Shown here piece by piece: positions 12,270-40,082 of a stretch of 40,082 nt of DNA. Every line of letters begins with the position of its first letter. The stretch's first letter is position 1. Made by a program: the position numbers and the translations under genes. The notes below the pieces were generated by a model. That model saw nothing but the letters and a program-made list of their open reading frames with translations, was not told where the DNA came from and did no database searches. The DNA is from a virus: positions 1 through 40,082 of IMG/VR virus record IMGVR_UViG_3300033553_000236; one strand, written 5' to 3'.

Positions 12270-12725
12270 TCAGTTGTTTACGGCCTGGCCGTAGGTAATG
12301 TCTAAATCGAATTGCGCGCTGTGCATGTAGGCGTTATCTACCCCCTGGGCAAATCGCCAGGCGGTGAGCGCGGCATCTGCCACTGCGCCATTGAGTGTGT
12401 CTGTGCGCATAATGGCATCCAGCACAATTTCAGGCAGGCCCTTGCGTTGATCAAATGCCGCTTCAAAATTATCTTCGTACCACACAAAGCCAAACTTTAT
12501 TTGCTGGGTTACGTCGTTGTATTTGTGGCCCATGGGTGTGGGCTCACCATCACCCAGTTCAAACACTAATGCGGGCAGTTCGTTGTCTCTAAATTCTTTT
12601 AAATCGCGGTTGCCGTTGAGCACGGTAAACGCTTTACCAAAATGCGCATTGGCCCATGCAGTGAGCGCAACATCACCGGTTAGCACGATTACAAGCTCGC
12701 TGTGTGCGTTGTTGAGTTTACTCAT
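12270..12725 (-). CDS. Tail terminator protein candidate
   Basis: A 151-aa alpha/beta protein located between the gp10-like connector gene and the tail tube gene, where siphophages encode the terminator that caps the tube and joins it to the head. The pattern of a central hydrophobic strand (IKFGFVWYED) and a C-terminal beta segment fits the family loosely. The start overlaps the upstream stop (ATGA type, 12722-12725), so translation is coupled. Confidence 0.6.
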   Translation of the reverse strand: MSKLNNAHSELVIVLTGDVALTAWANAHFGKAFTVLNGNRDLKEFRDNELPALVFELGDGEPTPMGHKYNDVTQQIKFGFVWYEDNFEAAFDQRKGLPEIVLDAIMRTDTLNGAVADAALTAWRFAQGVDNAYMHSAQFDLDITYGQAVNN

Positions 12726-13099
12726 AAGGCGAACACCTTTTTCTGTAGCTGCTGGCGCACTTCGCCGGTTACATCCACACTTTCAACGGCATCATCCAGA
12801 AACGGCCTGCGGCCATGCACCTGGTTAGCCCCTGTGCCTTCGTGCACGTTAATGGCGTAGCTTGTGGTATTACCCACCAGCGCCGACAGGTTGCCAATAG
12901 TTTTAAAAAAATGGCCCTGCAATAAATTACCCGTGCGCACAGGTATGGGGTAGTCGCCCGGTGATGCACCGCTTTTCAGGTTATCTATTTGCGCGTTGTC
13001 TATTTTTACAACTGCATTGCGCAGGCCCTGCTTAAGCGCGGCCTCAACCGAACGTGCACGGCGGTAAAACTTATTAGCCAGTGCGCCGGCGGTGCTCAT
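12722..13099 (-). CDS. HK97 gp10-like neck/connector protein
   Basis: A 125-aa protein with the gp10-like order: basic helical N terminus (FYRRARSVEAAL), a central PVRTGNLLQGHF motif (positively charged and Gly-containing) and a C-terminal RRPFLDDAVE. The family forms part of the head-tail joint. It overlaps both neighbours by 4 nt, as in a tightly coupled connector operon. Confidence 0.75.
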   Translation of the reverse strand: MSTAGALANKFYRRARSVEAALKQGLRNAVVKIDNAQIDNLKSGASPGDYPIPVRTGNLLQGHFFKTIGNLSALVGNTTSYAINVHEGTGANQVHGRRPFLDDAVESVDVTGEVRQQLQKKVFAL

Positions 13100-13539
13100 G
13101 CGCTTAACCCGAAGTGGCTGGTTTCAACATAGCCAACGGCGAGGCCGCCATTGTTTTCAATGTCTACACCCAGCTGCATTAAGTGCCTGGCGGCGGTGTC
13201 GTCTGCCGCTTTTGCGCGCTCCAGTATGCGTCGGTTTTCATCTTCAACCGACTCAGACGAACGCGACTTGCTCATTTTGGCCTGCTCGAAATTCGGCAGG
13301 CGGCGCAGCAACTCTGCTGCGGTTAGGTATTTTTCGGCCTCGATAATGTGCACTTCACTGGCACCGGTGGCGGCAGAGTAAAACGATGCGCCTACCGCAT
13401 CACTCACTACCTGCCCGAACGCCTGCAGTATTGAGTCGACATAACCGTCGCCTGCAATAAAGGCGGCGGTATCATCAATATCAAATTGCTTTGAGTTGAA
13501 GCCCAGTGCCACGACATCTTGTGCGGTTGCTTTTGCCAT
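13096..13539 (-). CDS. Head-tail connector candidate
   Basis: A 147-aa helical protein; I chose ATG 13539 rather than the in-frame TTG at 13551. It has helices typical of neck adaptor proteins (DGYVDSILQAFGQVVSDAVG, EVHIIEAEKYLTAAELLRRL) and an acidic-basic middle (SRSSESVEDENRR). It is the first gene after the capsid terminator, so it is read from leak-through or from its own start. Role inferred from position. Confidence 0.6.
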   Translation of the reverse strand: MAKATAQDVVALGFNSKQFDIDDTAAFIAGDGYVDSILQAFGQVVSDAVGASFYSAATGASEVHIIEAEKYLTAAELLRRLPNFEQAKMSKSRSSESVEDENRRILERAKAADDTAARHLMQLGVDIENNGGLAVGYVETSHFGLSA

Positions 13540-20776: not shown

Positions 20777-22627
20777 TCAGGCGGCCCGCTCATGGGTGCC
20801 CGAGCTAAATACATCAACCCCGCCATCGTCGTTAAACACTTTGCGCAGCATGGCGGTGCGTTTTGCGTCTATGGTGTGGTCGTCTTTTTTGTCGAATATG
20901 CGGTTGCGCGCGCCTTCTTTTGCGGTGTGGTTGCTCATGTGTTGCACTATGTCGCTGTCTAGTGGCATGGCGTAACCAATGCGCTGCAGGCGGGCGGTTA
21001 TTAAATTGGTGGCCAGCTCTTTGGCGGGCAATCTCACTGCACGCACGTCGCCTTTTTTGTCTTCTTCTTCGAGCATGGTGCCGTCTTCGTCTATGGCATC
21101 GAGCGCGCTGCCGAACAGGAAGCCTGTCATTCTGTCTTCGTAGTTGCCGTCGTCGTATTCTTCTCGGTTTTGCAGCATTTGCACCACCATGGTGCCGGCG
21201 CTGCCGAAGTCGACACCCCATGCACCCTGGAAGCCGAACAGCTCATCGATAACATAAATGAGCTCGCACTGGTAGTCGTAGCCCAGGCCTTTGGCGTGTA
21301 TGCGGGCAACCAGTTTTAGCTCTGGGCCCAGCTCCTGATACACAAATATTTCGGTGGGGTCTTTGGCGTAGCCGAGGTCTGCACCAAACCAGAATACCCC
21401 GGCACCGGCTGGCTCGATAAATTCGCGCAGCAGTGAGTGAAACGCGCGGCGCACGTTCTGCATGTCTTTTGAGGTGTAGTCGCTTAAGCTGTCGTAGCGG
21501 TCTGCATGGGCGTGGTTCTGGCCGACTTTTTTACCGTCGTTCATTTCAAAATCGATGGAGTAGGCGATTACGTGCAGCGCATCTTGTGATTTGTCGGCGC
21601 GCAGTTTTATGCAGCGGTACTCGGGCACGTCTCTGAAGTTTGGTTCTAAGGTATCCCATGGCCACACGGGGTTTTCTTGCTGGCCGTGCAGGCCCAGCAC
21701 GTTGCGCTGGTAGCCGGGGGAGTCTTCACCGCCGTACATGGTTATAAAATGCTGCTTGCGATCTACCCCCCAGAATGGCGGCGGCATGAGTGTTTTCGCC
21801 CAGTGAAACAGGCGCAGGCCCTGTTTGTGTTTTGGCAGGTCGGGTATGGCCTGCTGCGTCATGCGGTAAAATTCGGTGGAGTTGTCGCCATCTGGCACTG
21901 AGTAAAAGCGGCGGTGACAGCCGGGTTTAAGTGCGCGGTGAAATTCTGAGAAGATGGTTTTGTTTTTTACTTTGGCAGCTTCATCGAACAGGCCCAGGCC
22001 GTTTACGTGCACACCACGAAACGCCTCGCCATCATGCCCCGCCGGGCGGAAATACACCCGGCCTATGCTGGGGCGATTGGGCCGCTGCGGGTTGGGTGTT
22101 ACAAACCGTGCCATGTAGTGCGGGGTGCGCTTCGGCTTCCGCCAGAAGTAATTAATAAACGGCATGGGCTCGTTACTCTCGGCCACCTCGCCCACGTGCT
22201 CTTCCATGTCCATTATAATTTCATCGAGGTGGGTTTGCTGTGGCGCGGCCACCAGTATAGACGGGCGTACAATGCGGCCGCCAAAGCTGGTGCACATGGC
22301 CCAGAGTAGAAGCGCGGTTATTTCGCGGGTTTTGCCCACCTCGGCACCGTCCTGGTGAATTACATCCTGATCATACGACAGCACAGATTCTTCCTGGTAA
22401 TCCCAGAAGGCGTAGGGGTTGCCGGTGTCTGGCTCTTTCATAAACGCCTTGCACCACAGCACCGGGTTTTCAGATATAAACGCCAGCTGCGCATGCTCAA
22501 TGCTAATGCCATACTCACCCCGCGACAACGGCTGCCACGCCCAGCCACGATCGGCCAGCCATTCGTCGAAGCCGTCTATGTCAAAGGCGTTGTCTAGGGC
22601 TTCGTTTATGTTTGTGGCGGGTTTCAT
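20777..22627 (-). CDS. terL: Terminase large subunit
   Basis: A 616-aa packaging motor. The ATPase part has a Walker A-like loop DGAEVGKT (about 93-100; the usual second Gly is replaced) and Walker B GLGLFDEAA (Asp215-Glu216). The nuclease part has the RNase H-like acidic residues Asp417 (FGADLGYAKDP), Asp473 (WGVDFGSAG) and a late DDHTIDAKR. It should pack DNA into the head and cut it. It is followed by the portal gene and preceded by an AT-rich two-gene insert that separates it from the small-subunit candidate. Confidence 0.9.
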   Translation of the reverse strand: MKPATNINEALDNAFDIDGFDEWLADRGWAWQPLSRGEYGISIEHAQLAFISENPVLWCKAFMKEPDTGNPYAFWDYQEESVLSYDQDVIHQDGAEVGKTREITALLLWAMCTSFGGRIVRPSILVAAPQQTHLDEIIMDMEEHVGEVAESNEPMPFINYFWRKPKRTPHYMARFVTPNPQRPNRPSIGRVYFRPAGHDGEAFRGVHVNGLGLFDEAAKVKNKTIFSEFHRALKPGCHRRFYSVPDGDNSTEFYRMTQQAIPDLPKHKQGLRLFHWAKTLMPPPFWGVDRKQHFITMYGGEDSPGYQRNVLGLHGQQENPVWPWDTLEPNFRDVPEYRCIKLRADKSQDALHVIAYSIDFEMNDGKKVGQNHAHADRYDSLSDYTSKDMQNVRRAFHSLLREFIEPAGAGVFWFGADLGYAKDPTEIFVYQELGPELKLVARIHAKGLGYDYQCELIYVIDELFGFQGAWGVDFGSAGTMVVQMLQNREEYDDGNYEDRMTGFLFGSALDAIDEDGTMLEEEDKKGDVRAVRLPAKELATNLITARLQRIGYAMPLDSDIVQHMSNHTAKEGARNRIFDKKDDHTIDAKRTAMLRKVFNDDGGVDVFSSGTHERAA

Positions 22628-28053: not shown

Positions 28054-28333
28054 GGATTATTCGGTGTATGTGCCGCGGAGATAGATCGTATTCTTCTGCC
28101 AGCTCCAGGTAGTTGCTGCCTTTAAACTTTGTTTTTATTTCATGGTCGCGCACGTCTCTAAGCAGGTTGTTCCAGAAGACATCCGCTTTGGGTACGTGTT
28201 TTTTTTCACCACCCCAGTACTCCATGAGCTCATTCAGTGCAAACGCGCCTATTTTTCGCCCCAGTTCGATAAAATCACGGTGCTTGCTGTCTTCTGGCGA
28301 CAACTGTTCCAGCAGGCACTGCTCTTCAATCAT
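27980..28333 (-). CDS. Mor-like transcription activator
   Basis: A 117-aa protein from ATG 28333 (the ATG overlaps the recombinase end by 8 nt). The C-terminal half matches the Mor/C family of Mu-type activators: a helical dimer region (HRDFIELGRKIGAFALNELM) then LRDVRDHEIKTKFKGSNYLE and a HTH ending LSPRHIHRII. Mor/C proteins turn on middle or late phage genes from sites just upstream of -35. Its neighbours are early genes, and four late elements lie downstream, so I infer that it is the late activator. Confidence 0.65.
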   Translation of the reverse strand: MIEEQCLLEQLSPEDSKHRDFIELGRKIGAFALNELMEYWGGEKKHVPKADVFWNNLLRDVRDHEIKTKFKGSNYLELAEEYDLSPRHIHRIIHGRNASHRKKNDSLPRRLGEHSGK

Positions 28334-29417
28334 CAAGCAGGCTTGTTTGCTCTTGCTGTTTCTTTTTAACCCAGAGTGGTAGTCCACCTTTGTTTCTCCC
28401 AGTCACTATGTTCATGCGGTTATTCGGCATGCGCGCTTTTCGTCTGCGCTCTGATATCACGATGTAGCGGCGTGTTGTTTCCAGTTTTTCATGCCCCATC
28501 AGTTCCTGAATTATTTCTATGTCCACGCCTTCGTCGTATAGGTCGGTGGCAAAGGTCACACGCATCATGTGGATGCCTGAATGCTTTAGCTTTGCCCGCT
28601 TGGCTCGGCGGCTCACCATGTTTTCGATGGCTCGCAGTGTTAGCTGGCTGCTGATTTTCCCAATGCCGTTCACGGATACCCACACGGCATCACCCGTTAC
28701 GCCAGCCACGTTATCTCGAACCGCCAGCCAGTTGCGCAAGGCATCAACCGCTTCGCCCTGAAACGATAACTCACGCTCTTTGGCACCTTTGCCCAGCACT
28801 TTCACTTTGCCTACCCGTTCACGCAGGGTTACCTGGTCCAGCTTCAACTGCTGCAGCTCTTCTCGCCTAAAGCCGGTGGCGTAAAGAAAAACCAGAATGG
28901 CGTAGTCTCGAATGCCGATATCGGTGTCCAGGTCGCAGGTTGAAAACAACTTTTGAAGATCTTCGGTGCTGTATTTTTTCGGGATACGCTTCGTAACCTT
29001 CGGCCCGCGAATAAACTTTGCTGGGTTTGGCTGGTGCATGTAGGTTTCACGCCAGGCGAAGTATTGCCGCACCGCTGATATGTGCTGCATGCGGAATTGC
29101 TCGCCGTATTTGCGCACCACGTACATCCACTTCTGCCAGTCTTCCATGTGGTTGATATTCAACCGATCAACGCCAAGCCCCTGCTCACGCATCCAGCTAA
29201 AAAACCGCGTCATGTTTTTGCAGTACGTGCAAATGGTCGACTGGGTAAGACCCCGGCTGATGCGCAGGTGAGTAAGCCACTCAATCACGCTATCGGCGTT
29301 TTCCTCTGCCACCCGAGCATCCATGTAGCGGATAGCCAGCTCGATATCGCGGCTTACCTGAGCCAGCAAACCGCGTGGGTTGCTCTGTACGGCGCGGTGC
29401 TGGATTTCGTCGGTCAT
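28326..29417 (-). CDS. Tyrosine recombinase with all catalytic residues
   Basis: A 363-aa recombinase from ATG 29417. An N-terminal SAM-like core-binding domain (about 40-130) is followed by the catalytic domain with Arg184 (ATGFRREEL), Lys210 (GKGAKERELSF), His283-x-x-Arg286 (IHMMRVTF), His309 (LMGHEKLETT) and nucleophile Tyr318. All six positions are kept. The start overlaps the upstream stop as ATGA, and the end overlaps the Mor-like gene, so it sits inside an early operon, unlike most integrases. It may act in replication-product resolution, inversion or integration. Confidence 0.88.
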   Translation of the reverse strand: MTDEIQHRAVQSNPRGLLAQVSRDIELAIRYMDARVAEENADSVIEWLTHLRISRGLTQSTICTYCKNMTRFFSWMREQGLGVDRLNINHMEDWQKWMYVVRKYGEQFRMQHISAVRQYFAWRETYMHQPNPAKFIRGPKVTKRIPKKYSTEDLQKLFSTCDLDTDIGIRDYAILVFLYATGFRREELQQLKLDQVTLRERVGKVKVLGKGAKERELSFQGEAVDALRNWLAVRDNVAGVTGDAVWVSVNGIGKISSQLTLRAIENMVSRRAKRAKLKHSGIHMMRVTFATDLYDEGVDIEIIQELMGHEKLETTRRYIVISERRRKARMPNNRMNIVTGRNKGGLPLWVKKKQQEQTSLLDD

Positions 29418-29815
29418 AACGCCAACCCTGTGCAAACAACCTCACCACACGGCAAATTTCCCCCCGCGCCCCCCTTGCTACGGCCCATAGAACCCACCTC
29501 ATTTTTAGAGAGGATACTCAGGCCGGGCATTGGCCTATTCAGGCTGAGCTTTGGATGGGGGGTGGGCCCTATGTTCACTACCCACCGGCTGTGCACAGTA
29601 CACCCCAGCCACAGCAGCCGATCAGCCAGCCCAGCCAATCCGTTTCCGGTTCCTTCATATGCAACTATTCTAATATTAGAAACGGCTGCGATTACCGAGT
29701 TAAGCCCGTGCAATGCGGCTTTGAAGCCTGTAAAACCTGCCTTATTTGGTGGCGGAGGAATTACCTTTGGGTGATTTTCCTGTAGCCAAAGAAGAATAAA
29801 TTCAAGCATTTGCAT
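29414..29815 (-). CDS. Unknown operon protein between loader and recombinase
   Basis: A 133-aa frame with a hydrophobic N terminus (MQMLEFILLWLQENHPK), several Gly and Pro, and a less typical C-terminal tail (GGAGGNLPCGE). It overlaps both neighbours (14 nt with the loader gene, 4 nt as ATGA with the recombinase), which supports translation, but codon use is less convincing than in its neighbours. Confidence 0.45.
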   Translation of the reverse strand: MQMLEFILLWLQENHPKVIPPPPNKAGFTGFKAALHGLNSVIAAVSNIRIVAYEGTGNGLAGLADRLLWLGCTVHSRWVVNIGPTPHPKLSLNRPMPGLSILSKNEVGSMGRSKGGAGGNLPCGEVVCTGLAL

Positions 29816-31020: not shown

Positions 31021-31136
31021 GTATTTAACCAATGTACGCCCTGCAAGAGGGTGGCCTAAACCAATGTATATTATGTTAAATAGCAGAAATTCCAGATAAG
31101 AACATATAAAAAAACAATAAAAACAATAACCTATGT
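31021..31136. promoter_or_regulatory. Intergenic region between O-like gene and plus-strand recombinase
   Basis: The divergent gap 30934-31157 has no gene. It holds two direct repeats AACCAATGTA (31027-31036 and 31059-31068, 32 bp apart), the dif-like site, and AT-rich sequence with TATAAAAAAACAATAAAAAC just before the recombinase start. Promoters for both genes should lie here, but no strong -35/-10 pair is clear. Confidence 0.45.
31054..31081 (+). other. dif-like attachment site (attP candidate)
   Basis: AATGTATATTATGTTAAAT (31063-31081) is identical to the spacer plus XerD-binding half of the gammaproteobacterial dif consensus: spacer TGTATA (31065-31070), XerD box TTATGTTAAAT (31071-31081). 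The left 11 bases (GCCTAAACCAA, 31054-31064) differ from the dif XerC box except at its edges. This is the layout of attP in elements that use host XerC/D: a kept XerD arm and a diverged XerC arm. It is 77 bp from the start of a XerD-like recombinase gene. Confidence 0.8.
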
Positions 31137-31157
31137 TTGATCGCTGGATGCCTGTAT

Positions 31158-32132
31158 ATGACTCTGCCCGCGTTAACACTTTGTTATCGTCAAATTGATA
31201 CGGATGGTAATTACCCCATAGCACCGCTGCTGCCGGCCTTTCGGCAATACTTGTCGTATGCAAAAAAGTCGGCATCAACGCAGCGGATCTACCTGGCTGC
31301 GTTGGTGAAATGGGGTGAATTTGAGAAGAATGCACTAAACCCATCACAGGACGGCCTCCTGCGCTGGATGCGCCACCGGCGAACCCATGTGGGTGTTGCC
31401 ACCTATAATATCGACCTTACGGCGCTGAGGGCGTTTTATCGCTGGTGTTGCATGCTGGGTTATACCAGCAGCGATTACAGCGAGTGGTTGCCGAAGAAAA
31501 TCAAACAACCCAGCCGCTTGCCACGGTTTCTCACCGACAAACAGGTGGGCCAGTTGCTGGCAGCGCCAGATCTGGCCACGCTGGTTGGTTTCAGGGACCA
31601 TATAATGCTGCGGTTGATATACGAGACAGGCATTACGGCCAGCGAGCTGATATCGCTCGACATTGGCTGCATACTGCCGTGGCCGGATAACCGGCTGTAC
31701 ATCAGCAGCAAAATCGGCAATCAGGGCCGCAAGGCACCCTTTAGCCAGTGCATGCGAGAGTTGCTGCAGGCGTGGCTGGCTGTGCGGCGTGAAACGCGCC
31801 CGGGTAAGTCGGCCACCCTGTTTGTTACCTGCAAAGGCAGGCCGTTCAGGCAAGGCCGTGCTGTGTGGGAAATGGTGAATAAATACGCCCGGCAGGCACT
31901 GGGTGTTGCTGAAGGTTTTGGGCGGATACAGGCAGCCGGCAAACAGAAGCCGTGGCATGGCCACTACCCTCACCTGTTGCGCGCGGCCTTCGCCACCCAG
32001 CTTATTCAAAACGGCTGTAACCTGCGTGCGGTGCAGCAGCTGCTGGGGCATACGTCCATTCACAGCACAGCACAATACCTTGCGCTGGACATCGGCACGC
32101 TGAAACGCGAACACGCCAAGTTGTTTAAATGA
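31158..32132 (+). CDS. XerD-like tyrosine recombinase, first catalytic Arg replaced by Thr
   Basis: A 324-aa recombinase (from ATG 31158; the frame opens at a TTG 31137). The N-terminal SAM-like domain is followed by a catalytic domain with Lys185, His272-x-x-Arg275 (YPHLLRAAF), His298 (LLGHTSIHSTAQY) and Tyr307. At the first Arg position, where XerD has ATGLRVSEL, it has ETGITASEL, so Thr160 (codon ACG, 31635-31637) stands in for the essential Arg. It is the only early gene on the plus strand. It is probably the integrase for the dif-like site, or a partner of host XerC/D. Confidence 0.82.
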   Translation: MTLPALTLCYRQIDTDGNYPIAPLLPAFRQYLSYAKKSASTQRIYLAALVKWGEFEKNALNPSQDGLLRWMRHRRTHVGVATYNIDLTALRAFYRWCCMLGYTSSDYSEWLPKKIKQPSRLPRFLTDKQVGQLLAAPDLATLVGFRDHIMLRLIYETGITASELISLDIGCILPWPDNRLYISSKIGNQGRKAPFSQCMRELLQAWLAVRRETRPGKSATLFVTCKGRPFRQGRAVWEMVNKYARQALGVAEGFGRIQAAGKQKPWHGHYPHLLRAAFATQLIQNGCNLRAVQQLLGHTSIHSTAQYLALDIGTLKREHAKLFK

Positions 32133-34076: not shown

Positions 34077-35171
34077 TCAAGCCCTTATCGGCATAATTAA
34101 ATGAAAATCATCACCGCCAAAATTAAATTTAAGCGGCTTGCCCTCGCCAAACACTTCACAGGTTATGCCATCGTCGCCACCCAGTCGCAGCACATCGCAT
34201 AAATATTTTCCATCCAATGTGCAGTCGGCTTCATTGCTGGCCATGCAGTCGGCAAAATCATCGGTTGCACGGCCACGAATACGCATCATATTGCCGTTAA
34301 AATTTAACGATAATTTCTGGCATAAGGTGTTTTTAATTTTCGCCGTTTCCATCAGCACGTCGCGCTCAATCACCGGCAGCACATCCGGACAGTTCAGCTC
34401 CACCACGCTGTTCGGGTTGCCTACCGGCACGGTGCGAAACACATCCGGATAGTTGCCACTCATCAGCTTTACAATGTAGTTAAGCTCGTCGCTCACCACC
34501 GCCAGTGCAATGGCCTTGTTGTCTTTGTTTACATACAGCTTCAGCGCCTTGTCTTCACCACGGCCCAGCACTTTCAGCAAGCGGTCTATGCAGCCAATGG
34601 GCACCAGCAGCTCATGGGAAATCTCGCTGCCCAGTTTAAAAATAGCCAGGCGGTGGCCATCGGTTGCAGCCACGTAATTTTTCGCAATGCTTACCGCATT
34701 CAGGTAATAACGCACATCCTTTTTGCTGGCGGCGTACTTTACTCGAGTAATGGCGGTTTTTAGCAATGCGGGGTCTATCTCGAACGGCACTGTGCTGTCT
34801 TCGTTATACAGCGGAAAGTCAGCCGCCGCTAAATGGTTAAGGCTAAACTGGCGAGATCCGCGGCGGGTTTTCTGCTGCACGGTCAGCTTGTTGTCTTTCA
34901 GCTGCAGCGTAACCTCGCCGGTTAAGCCGCTCAGCGCATTGCGCAGCTCGGCCGCATTCACCAGCAGTTCGCTGCCATCCTCGTTGTGGCAGGGCACCAC
35001 CACACTCACCTGCTCTTCCATGTTGCTGGTGGTAAGGGTTAACTTGCCCAGCTCATATACGCCTGCTGCGCTCAGCAGTGCGTGCTCCAGCACAGGCATG
35101 GCGGTTCTTTTTTCGGCCACATTAAAGGCCAGCGCTTCGCGCAGTGCTTTTGCATCTATGGTTATGTTCAT
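34077..35171 (-). CDS. dnaN: DNA polymerase III beta sliding clamp
   Basis: A 364-aa bacterial-type clamp: three domains, with typical VRYYLNAVSI, ATDGHRLAIF, a third domain and the C-terminal HLIMPIRA, which corresponds to the VVMPMRL end of E. coli DnaN. It encircles DNA and binds polymerases and other partners. Phages that carry their own bacterial-type clamp are uncommon. No phage polymerase is visible, so it may bind host Pol III or a recombinase. Its ATG overlaps the tyrosine recombinase stop (ATGA), so both are translationally coupled. Confidence 0.93.
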   Translation of the reverse strand: MNITIDAKALREALAFNVAEKRTAMPVLEHALLSAAGVYELGKLTLTTSNMEEQVSVVVPCHNEDGSELLVNAAELRNALSGLTGEVTLQLKDNKLTVQQKTRRGSRQFSLNHLAAADFPLYNEDSTVPFEIDPALLKTAITRVKYAASKKDVRYYLNAVSIAKNYVAATDGHRLAIFKLGSEISHELLVPIGCIDRLLKVLGRGEDKALKLYVNKDNKAIALAVVSDELNYIVKLMSGNYPDVFRTVPVGNPNSVVELNCPDVLPVIERDVLMETAKIKNTLCQKLSLNFNGNMMRIRGRATDDFADCMASNEADCTLDGKYLCDVLRLGGDDGITCEVFGEGKPLKFNFGGDDFHLIMPIRA

Positions 35172-36154
35172 GCAGCACCTCCCAGGGTTTCGGTTGCATC
35201 ATCCAGCGGTGCCAGTGTTCTTATCTGGTGGCGGCGGGCTTCGGCACTTTGCAGGCCGTAGATGTCGGCAAAGGTGTTCATATTTTCATGGCCGGCCATG
35301 TCGGCGGCCACGCGCAAGTCGCCGGTTTTTTCATACACCTCACCCAGCCGGCGGTGGCGAAATAAATGGCAGTGCACATGGGGCAAGCCCGCCAGCTTGC
35401 CGTAGTGTTTCAGCCGGGCGGCAATGCTGGCGCGGCCCAGTCGTTTACCCTGCTTACTTACAAACAGTGCATCGCAAAATTTAAAATCCAGCTGAAAACG
35501 CACGGTCAACCACTCATTCAATAGCGCCAGCGTGGCATCGTCCACCACACTCACCTTCTGCTTTCCGCCTTTCGCCTGGTAAGCCACCACACCGGCCGGG
35601 GTCACGCAGTGTTTTGGTGGTTTTTTTTTGTTATACACATCCAGGCTAACCACACCACCCACACGCAAGGCCGAGTCAAACATCAGCCGAAACAGCGCGC
35701 GGTCGCGTTTACCCAGCAGCGTATCGGTGGGAATAACATCAATCACCTGCATTAACTGCGCCTTGCTGGGGGCCACCACCCGCTGGCGCACAAAGCGCAC
35801 CTTAATGCCGGCGGTTGGGTCGTGTTTAATCACATTGCGCAGGCGATAAAACTTAATAAAACTGCGCAAGCACTCCAGTTTACGTGCTGCTGTGCGATGG
35901 CTTACGCCGTTACCCTCAACCAGCGCAGTTACCCAGTCGTCCACCAGATTAAAACCAATGGTATTAATCACGGTTACATCACGGCTGGCGGCAAAGCCCA
36001 CAAACTGCTCCAGATCTGTCTGGTAGCTTTTCAATGTACTGGCCGCATAGCCCAAATTAGCCAGCTGGCGTAAAAAACGTTGGCACAGTGGAATAAGACT
36101 GCCGGGCTGGGCCACATTGCGGGGGGTGAAGTCCACTATGTTGTCGTCGTTCAT
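35168..36154 (-). CDS. Tyrosine recombinase coupled to dnaN
   Basis: A 328-aa recombinase from ATG 36154 (4-nt overlap with the upstream stop). SAM-like N-terminal domain (AASTLKSYQTDLEQF) and catalytic residues Arg164 (SALRVGGV), Lys195 region (AKGGKQKVSV), His263-x-x-Arg266 (CHLFRHRR), His289 (AGHENMNT) and Tyr299. All positions are kept. It is more diverged from XerD than the recombinase at 28.3 kb. The ATGA overlap with dnaN is a strong link. Confidence 0.88.
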   Translation of the reverse strand: MNDDNIVDFTPRNVAQPGSLIPLCQRFLRQLANLGYAASTLKSYQTDLEQFVGFAASRDVTVINTIGFNLVDDWVTALVEGNGVSHRTAARKLECLRSFIKFYRLRNVIKHDPTAGIKVRFVRQRVVAPSKAQLMQVIDVIPTDTLLGKRDRALFRLMFDSALRVGGVVSLDVYNKKKPPKHCVTPAGVVAYQAKGGKQKVSVVDDATLALLNEWLTVRFQLDFKFCDALFVSKQGKRLGRASIAARLKHYGKLAGLPHVHCHLFRHRRLGEVYEKTGDLRVAADMAGHENMNTFADIYGLQSAEARRHQIRTLAPLDDATETLGGAA

Positions 36155-36642
36155 GCCTGCGCCGCCCATTGAGTGTGTTCACACAGGTGGCGATCGCTCA
36201 GCTTTAAATCACCGGCCGTTTGCGGGTCGCAGGGTGACAAAAAGCGCAGGTAATTCTCCATGTCGTCGAAGAACATAATGGCCGCACGAATCAGTTTGGC
36301 TTTTGGGGTGTGGGTAAACGGCATCACCAGGCGGTAACCGTTGGCGCGCATCAGCGCCTCAAGCTGCTTACACACATCGCCCTCGCCCACATCCACCAGG
36401 CTAAAATCAACCAACCCATAGTCATCACTCGCGCAAAAGCGCACGCGCATTTTCAAATCGTATTCAATGCACGACACCACATCAAACTCAGTCATTACCT
36501 GCTCAATAATGCCGGCGTAGCCAAGCTGCTTCATGTGAGGTACCTGCTCGCAAAACGTAAGGCGCAGCTCATCGGTGAACACATCTTCAAACACGCCGCT
36601 GCAGCCCGGGCCTGTCGCTAAATTACGCATAGAGTCAGCCAT
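36151..36642 (-). CDS. Unknown early protein
   Basis: A 163-aa protein with GYAGIIEQVMTEFDVVSCIE and RVRFCASDDYGLVDFSLV. Alpha/beta, no recognised motif. It overlaps the small gene before it and is coupled to the recombinase after it. Confidence 0.55.
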   Translation of the reverse strand: MADSMRNLATGPGCSGVFEDVFTDELRLTFCEQVPHMKQLGYAGIIEQVMTEFDVVSCIEYDLKMRVRFCASDDYGLVDFSLVDVGEGDVCKQLEALMRANGYRLVMPFTHTPKAKLIRAAIMFFDDMENYLRFLSPCDPQTAGDLKLSDRHLCEHTQWAAQA

Positions 36643-37734: not shown

Positions 37735-37824
37735 TTACAAAAATGAAAATACCTGCGAAATAACGGCAAATGCCAGCCACCACAGCGGCGCAGCTATAAA
37801 CTGTGCCAGCCGGCGGCTACGCAT
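37735..37824 (-). CDS. Possible 29-aa membrane microprotein
   Basis: ATG 37824 overlaps the serine recombinase stop (ATG CG TAG) and opens a 29-aa frame: a basic start (MRSRRLAQF) and one hydrophobic helix (IAAPLWWLAFAVISQVFSF). The topology fits small toxin-like or regulatory membrane peptides. No independent start site is visible, so translation would depend on coupling. It fills an otherwise empty gap. Confidence 0.35.
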   Translation of the reverse strand: MRSRRLAQFIAAPLWWLAFAVISQVFSFL

Positions 37825-38566
37825 TGCCCGCTTCATTGCCCGTCTCAAGCAGCCCAGTGAAATCCACCGCAAATGGAATATGATCAAACTCATCATGAGA
37901 TTTAATCAAACCCACCACTGTGCTCACCTGCCACTCACGCCCACCCTTCGGGGTGGCTACTTTATCTTTGTAAAGCTGGTTGCAAATTTCGCGCAGGCTC
38001 AGGCCCGCATCGTTCAGCTCCATAATCAGTTCACGAATCGCCCAGGTCTGCTTATCTTTAAACAGGTAGCCATCCACATTAAGCAGGCCATAAGACACCG
38101 GGCCATACACTCTGCCCGCGCCCTTAAGCCCACGCATGCACTGGCGAGTGCGCTGCGCGGTTTTATTGCGCTCATACTCACAGGTGGCCAGGCGAATAGT
38201 CAGCGCCAGCTTGCCCTCGGGCGATGCGGTGTCGATGGAGTCGTTAATGGAAAAAACAGATACGCCGCGGCGGTCGAACCAGGCGAAGGTCATCAGGCCG
38301 TCCAGCGTCAGGCGAAACAGGCGGTCAAGGTCGCGAATCAACACGCCATCTGCCTCACCGGCATCCAGCCGTGCCAGCAGCTCGCGGCCACCCTCGCGCT
38401 TTTCAAGGCCCTTGCTGCCGCTCACGCCCTCGTCGGTAATAACCGCCACCAGCTCGTGGTCGTAGAGCGCGCAAAACTGCTCAAACATGGCCCGCTGCTG
38501 CCCCAGGCTGTGGCCGTGCCGCGCCTGCTCTTCTGTGCTTACTCGAATGTAACCAATAATGCGCAT
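37817..38566 (-). CDS. Serine recombinase (resolvase/invertase-type)
   Basis: A 249-aa recombinase. N-terminal resolvase domain: nucleophile Ser10 (YIRVSTEEQ), DEGVSGSKG, and the Arg-rich RDLDRLFR and TASPEGKLALTI. The C-terminal part is short (about 100 aa: GPVSYGLLN, DAGLSLREICNQL, HTH-like), so it is smaller than large integrases but larger than Tn3 resolvases. Its start overlaps the Cro-like gene's stop (TGATG). It could invert, resolve or integrate; its place in the early operon argues against a simple integrase role. Confidence 0.87.
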   Translation of the reverse strand: MRIIGYIRVSTEEQARHGHSLGQQRAMFEQFCALYDHELVAVITDEGVSGSKGLEKREGGRELLARLDAGEADGVLIRDLDRLFRLTLDGLMTFAWFDRRGVSVFSINDSIDTASPEGKLALTIRLATCEYERNKTAQRTRQCMRGLKGAGRVYGPVSYGLLNVDGYLFKDKQTWAIRELIMELNDAGLSLREICNQLYKDKVATPKGGREWQVSTVVGLIKSHDEFDHIPFAVDFTGLLETGNEAGNA

Positions 38567-39932: not shown

Positions 39933-39965
39933 AAAAAAAAGCCCCTCAATCAGGGGCTTTTTTTT
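39933..39965. terminator. Bidirectional terminator between the two transcription units
   Basis: AAAAAAAAGCCCCT-CAATC-AGGGGCTTTTTTTT has a 6-bp GC stem with A and T tracts on the two sides. It closes the plus-strand lysogeny operon and, in circular form, the minus-strand lysis operon. The half copy at 1-22 is the overlap copy. The Rz1 stop lies in its loop region. Confidence 0.88.
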
Positions 39966-40082
39966 CGTCTTCTTTTTTACTTACATCAGCCGGTAGCGGT
40001 TGTCTCTCGCGCACCGCGCTTACCAGGCTGTTGAAGTTGTTCTGCATTAGCTGAATGTACTCCATCAATGCCAGGCTGAATA
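39942..40082. repeat. Terminal direct repeat, right copy (identical to 1-141)
   Basis: Exact copy of the first 141 bases. It joins the lysis end to the repressor end in the circular genome. Genes in this stretch (Rz1 and Rz 3' parts) are already listed at the left end. Confidence 0.93.

Follow-up and report, generated by a model that had tools for sequence, protein, structure and literature searches.

Tailed phages with a dif-type attachment site whose XerC half is replaced by a private arm, and the evidence for their integration at host dif

Introduction

Several kinds of element are known to insert at dif by borrowing the recombinases XerC and XerD, namely filamentous phages, islands and some tailless phages. 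The closest described systems are the IMEX of Vibrio and Neisseria, i.e. CTXphi, VGJphi, TLCphi and GGI, which insert at dif by means of an attP that is part host-type and part divergent: the XerC half is kept, and the XerD half or the core is varied (PMC5357621). These elements are filamentous or satellite phages or an island, and they rely on host Xer proteins. Tailless dsDNA prophages likewise occupy dif in Vibrio, some of them with integrase genes, and the part of the account drawn on here leaves the acting recombinase inconclusive (PMC11630473); the corresponding part of a second account places NO16/Asemoviridae among these prophages (PMC9966536). In Legionella, the mobile element LME-1 carries a dif mimic, inserts at dif and yields a modified dif site (PMC9765430).

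The locus described here lies in a virus record, IMGVR_UViG_3300033553_000236, analysed over its whole stretch of 40,082 nucleotides (henceforth the window). Like the IMEX, its family combines a dif-like attP (19/19 bases in the window) with integrated copies at dif (six prophages among the relatives). Unlike them, it comprises tailed dsDNA phages with Xer-like proteins of their own, in which the XerD half is kept and the XerC half replaced; the conserved XerC half that characterizes CTXphi/VGJphi/TLCphi-type attP sites is absent from that of the window. The tailless Vibrio prophages differ in being small and lacking tails, and the layout of a private arm with an adjacent recombinase goes unreported in the parts of those accounts used here (PMC11630473, PMC9966536), while LME-1 differs in that Legionella has a single host recombinase, XerL (PMC9765430). 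The Bacillus tyroviruses share with the window family the presence of three Xer-like tyrosine recombinases, but in the part of their description available to us dif integration is unreported and a plasmid-prophage lifestyle is suggested (PMC9703825). The literature searched, which was mostly open-access, contained no published account of tailed phages integrating at dif, whether or not with a private arm in place of the XerC half. We infer that the family is a variant of the IMEX: tailed phages that retain the XerD half, carry a private arm for the XerC half and would recombine by way of host Xer proteins.

The attachment site and the phage that carries it

The site (31054-31081, plus strand, 28 bp) reads GCCTAAACCAA / TGTATA / TTATGTTAAAT, as compared to GGTGCGCATAA / TGTATA / TTATGTTAAAT in the dif of E. 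coli. The right arm (31071-31081) is of the XerD type and the same as the E. coli XerD box, the 6-bp core (31065-31070), which is the strand-exchange region, is that of gammaproteobacterial dif, and the left arm (31054-31064) stands in place of the XerC arm. Overall, 20 of the 28 positions equal those of E. coli dif, with just 3/11 in the left arm; a preliminary description of this DNA had pointed to the 19 bases from 31063 to 31081 as the dif spacer plus XerD box, and the comparison bears this out (19/19). This 19-mer occurs once in the window even when up to three mismatches are allowed, and not at all, with the same tolerance, in 100 dinucleotide shuffles of the window, which rules out a chance match; the runner-up 28-mer, with a score of 18, has no comparable unbroken run. 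A tRNA attachment site was ruled out, the window having no tRNA.

Inverted repeats surround the site (30999-31011/31090-31102 and 31022-31029/31075-31082) and had suggested a folded single-stranded attP of the CTXphi kind; this was dropped because the genome is dsDNA and because no such repeats were seen when the flanks of the relatives were inspected by eye. There is also a direct repeat, AACCAATGTA, at 31027-31036 and 31059-31068, whose upstream copy amounts to a second partial private arm plus the start of a core, oriented like attP and lying 32 bp upstream of it; no second partial arm was seen in the flanks of the relatives.

A terminal direct repeat of 141 bp (1-141, copied at 39942-40082) makes the record circular, with a genome of 39,941 bp, and the site is therefore an attP rather than a prophage end. 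Its structural genes classify the window as a tailed, siphovirus-like phage of the Caudoviricetes: PHROG matches were obtained for the portal, the tape measure, the J fibre and the major tail protein, and an Ig-type tail tube is encoded. The protein encoded at 20777-22627 gave no match in the PHROG search, but a Caudovirales record contains a protein annotated as terminase large subunit with which it aligns at 23% identity (E 7e-17).

Several site-specific recombinase genes are present. The one adjoining attP (31158-32132, plus strand) begins with an ATG at 31158, 76 bp past the site, or alternatively with a TTG at 31137; it is a Xer-type tyrosine recombinase as judged by Pfam (PF00589), a PHROG integrase match, alignments and its solved relatives XerA and XerD, so that the XerD homologue originally noted beside the site is indeed a Xer-like recombinase. 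XerA and XerD are also the top Foldseek matches of its AF2 model (pLDDT 78.5, pTM 0.46), which was used for fold identity alone, since a pTM of 0.46 leaves the domain orientation uncertain. A second tyrosine recombinase with a complete active site (28326-29435, minus strand) lies on the opposite side of attP, which becomes the attR side of the prophage, and a third (35168-36169, minus strand) lies in the replication region beside a homologue of the DNA polymerase III beta-clamp (34077-35171). Finally, a serine resolvase/invertase (37817-38566, minus strand) is conserved in the family and probably stands outside the dif reaction.

A family of phages with the same layout

Searching IMG/VR for the 19-mer gave 120 loci, many of them on short contigs of ~5-12 kb, while a single-sequence viral scan with the recombinase as query returned no match; further members came from scanning viral and bacterial contigs with alignments and from one order-wide genome search. 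It totals 30 recombinases, that of the window and 29 homologues of the adjoining type, which the tree separates as a clade from the second phage recombinase (support 100/100). The genomes across the family are those of tailed phages of about 40-50 kb. The relatives with fetched contigs have the terminase (48-66% identity) and portal in common, and three tyrosine recombinases apart from a few gaps on fragments; they also share the serine resolvase, except for one 12-kb fragment.

Each of the 25 distinct members with upstream DNA has a dif-type core with a XerD-type half within 350 bp upstream of the recombinase gene, the cores of two of them (L126 and L128) being diverged; the family consensus of the right arm is TTATGTnA. 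For instance, a relative on a 39-kb contig (L061, G007) encodes a recombinase 47% identical to that of the window, adjoining GCGTAAACAAA / TGTATA / TTATGTTAAAT. The phage MACPNOA1 (KY697807) is a further member, with the terminase 48% and the adjacent integrase 40% identical, and with ACCTAAGCCAC / TGTATA / TTATGTCAAAC in the equivalent position of an equal attP layout; its att site is unannotated. Its annotated host, the cyanobacterium Microcystis, differs from the gammaproteobacterial hosts of its relatives and is doubtful, because those relatives are prophages of Gammaproteobacteria, one half of the att site is of a proteobacterial XerD type and there is a fourth gene (12355-13344) annotated as XerD.

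As for the left half of the site, the circular record of the window and MACPNOA1 both carry the private arm, and in 8/8 members from cellular genomes (Gammaproteobacteria MAGs, Stenotrophomonas, Pseudoxanthomonas, Xanthomonas codiaei, Lysobacteraceae and two further genomes of the order) the gene-side site has a host-type left half, TGCATAA, CGCATAA or CGTATAA.

Integrated copies at dif

Both ends lie on one contig in six prophages, i.e. G005 (44.4 kb), G010 (46.4 kb), G012 (41.9 kb), G444 (44.6 kb), G448 (50.4 kb) and G452 (42.4 kb). In each of the six, the recombinase-side end consists of the host XerC arm, the core and the phage right arm, i.e. a restored dif, whereas the far end, 42-50 kb away, consists of the private arm, the core and the host right arm. 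The attL and attR cores are equal within each prophage, and the sequences of the relatives place the crossover in the core and the inner part of the right arm, which the partners share.

The attB deduced for G010, a Stenotrophomonas prophage, is ATTTCGCATAA / TGTATA / TTATGTCAGGA and equals the reverse complement of the Xanthomonas campestris dif published earlier (PMC2731167); to the right of this site, the flanking sequence runs collinear with that beside an intact dif in a relative, at 78% over 55 bp. The attB deduced for G452 occurs as the same 28-mer, intact, in two related genomes. Six two-ended prophages and two attB sites equal to intact dif thus strongly support, at the level of sequence, integration of the family at host dif. 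The preliminary description had read the site as the attP of a dif-integrating element and had proposed inspecting whether the ends of related prophages abut dif, as those of all six do. A lysogen of the window phage itself was not found in the scans of viral and bacterial contigs or in the order-wide genome search, and its own integration at dif is suggested by an anatomy identical to that of its relatives.

The private left arm

The left arm follows the consensus ~nCsTAArYCAA in nine phages, whose recombinases range down to about 35-40% identity to that of the window. The mean pairwise identity of this arm, for eight of the nine phages, is 7.4/11 as against 2.8 for random 11-mers from the flanks, and 0 of 20,000 random flank draws reach that value. 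The earlier view of the left half as a diverged XerC box hence holds for the divergence and fails for the decay: conservation so far above that of the flanks rules out a simple decayed XerC box, and the left half is a conserved, phage-specific half-site unlike any XerC box. Other clades have other left arms, e.g. TCCTGTCAAAC, CCGGAAGGGAA, CTCGGAAAGAA and CCCCGAACAAC.

The distance between left arms tracks that between adjacent recombinases when the second one is corrected for (partial r 0.35, permutation p 0.002), with the qualification that these Mantel permutations ignore phylogeny and that linkage of left arm and gene can itself yield covariation. The corresponding value for the second recombinase, once the adjacent one is allowed for, is a partial r of -0.12.

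Catalytic residues lost from the adjacent recombinase on three branches

A complete active site is found in most family members, and the motif GLRASEL is present in most of them. The latter is GITASEL in the window and GITAAEV in L061, i.e. Arg I is replaced by Thr in both. In the window protein the hairpin Lys is displaced by one position, and HxxR, GH and Tyr are kept; it hence departs from the signature R...K...HxxR...H/W...Y of active tyrosine recombinases. The L061 protein has no hairpin Lys. In L125, Lys takes the place of Arg I, the hairpin Lys is missing and Phe replaces the nucleophile Tyr; its int-side site is a restored dif. In L179 (G019), likewise beside a dif site, Arg I is replaced by Ser and Tyr by His, and Lys and GH are also lost; its branch is long, and it may come from a prophage in decay. 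The tree thus places the loss of catalytic residues on three branches: the window with L061 (sisters, 95/88), L125 and L179.

In some tyrosine recombinases, such as Flp, Arg I is dispensable for cleavage, and partial activity is retained without Arg I in some. The degenerate recombinases nevertheless keep open frames, and since these, with a conserved HxxR, persist over long divergence, the proteins may well retain a function other than catalysis.

Mechanistic interpretation

We propose, with a probability of roughly 0.6, that a temperate tailed phage uses this site as its attP, with a phage protein on the private arm and catalysis left to the partner on the right arm. The sequences of the relatives show attP to be built of the private left arm, the dif core and the XerD-type right arm, attL to be a restored dif with the host XerC arm and the phage right arm about the core, and attR to have the private arm and the host right arm about the core. 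Host XerD would sit on the right arm of both partners and host XerC on dif, and the 31158-32132 protein would bind the private left arm and complete the synapse. Since dif offers XerC and XerD arms alone, the simplest synapse would join dif:XerC-XerD with attP:phage protein-XerD. Because the 31158-32132 protein has lost Arg I and the hairpin Lys, strand exchange would probably be performed by the right-arm partner, most likely host XerD or, alternatively, the intact 28326-29435 recombinase, which could be the catalyst and is present in every relative checked. The arms of dif and the lost catalytic residues of the phage protein together suggest recombination by host XerC and/or XerD. On the opposing side, the complete active site of most members implies that catalysis by the adjacent protein may be normal elsewhere in the family.

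The dif site would remain usable after insertion, with attL expected to be a working dif. Host XerCD/FtsK alone would be unable to excise the prophage because attR is without a XerC arm, and excision would await the phage protein. GGI likewise secures its stability by changing one half, there the XerD side (PMC5357621). The arrangement suggests how a large prophage may live, uncut by FtsK/XerCD, in the place where recombination on the chromosome is busiest. A more specific version of this reading, which we offer tentatively and with considerable doubt, is that in several lineages the phage protein is a 'pseudo-integrase' without catalysis, a subunit targeting the private half-site that drafts XerD, along with XerC on dif, and so inserts and later excises a 40-kb prophage while dif stays functional and excision phage-controlled. 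The repeated catalytic loss raises the question of whether an integrase can become the pure targeting subunit of a host enzyme.

A phage-encoded pair, in which the 28326-29435 recombinase catalyses with the 31158-32132 protein as its partner and with little or no need for host Xer proteins, is possible though on balance unlikely. The second recombinase carries the active signature that the adjacent one has lost, with Arg, Lys, HxxR, GH and Tyr all present in the window protein and the seven relatives aligned; it has a homologue in 16/16 relatives searched and sits near the attR end of the prophages, so that the two recombinase genes bracket the prophage. Such a pair would, however, have to bind the host XerC and XerD arms, the only ones that dif has, in addition to the private arm. 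Moreover, left-arm distance does not track the second recombinase once the adjacent one is allowed for, and the location of its gene near a replication gene makes another task possible. That the element is an ordinary IMEX, for which host XerC and XerD suffice and integration does not involve the phage recombinases, would fit the host-type core and XerD arm and the integration of filamentous phages and islands without an integrase of their own (PMC5357621); it is nonetheless improbable, given a left arm conserved between phages and unlike any XerC box, a dedicated recombinase gene beside the site in all 25 members with upstream DNA, and the fact that the IMEX of that account vary the XerD side or the core, not the XerC side. 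Least probable of all is a classical integrase, with the adjacent recombinase acting alone as a homotetramer and dif merely its attB, since a single protein would need to recognise three unlike arms (private, XerC and XerD) and its catalytic residues are gone in the window phage and two further branches, despite the complete active site of most members and a gene that adjoins attP as in ordinary prophages. The layout of the family also supplies a practical rule for recognizing its prophages, namely a dif site with a Xer-like gene 50-200 bp away.

Dif-type sites outside the family

Relatives of the window recombinases are absent from the fetched stretches of four other tailed-phage contigs, L108, L046 (siphovirus-like tail genes), L076 and L066 (tail sheath/baseplate), in which a dif core and XerD half are present; the use of dif among tailed phages may thus be wider than this family. 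In two further phage contigs, dif-like sites lie directly upstream of O-like replication-initiation genes (L088, 3574-3601; L112, near 7022); in L088 the left arm is TTGGGAAATAA, and a pair of Xer-like genes lies within roughly 1.5 kb.
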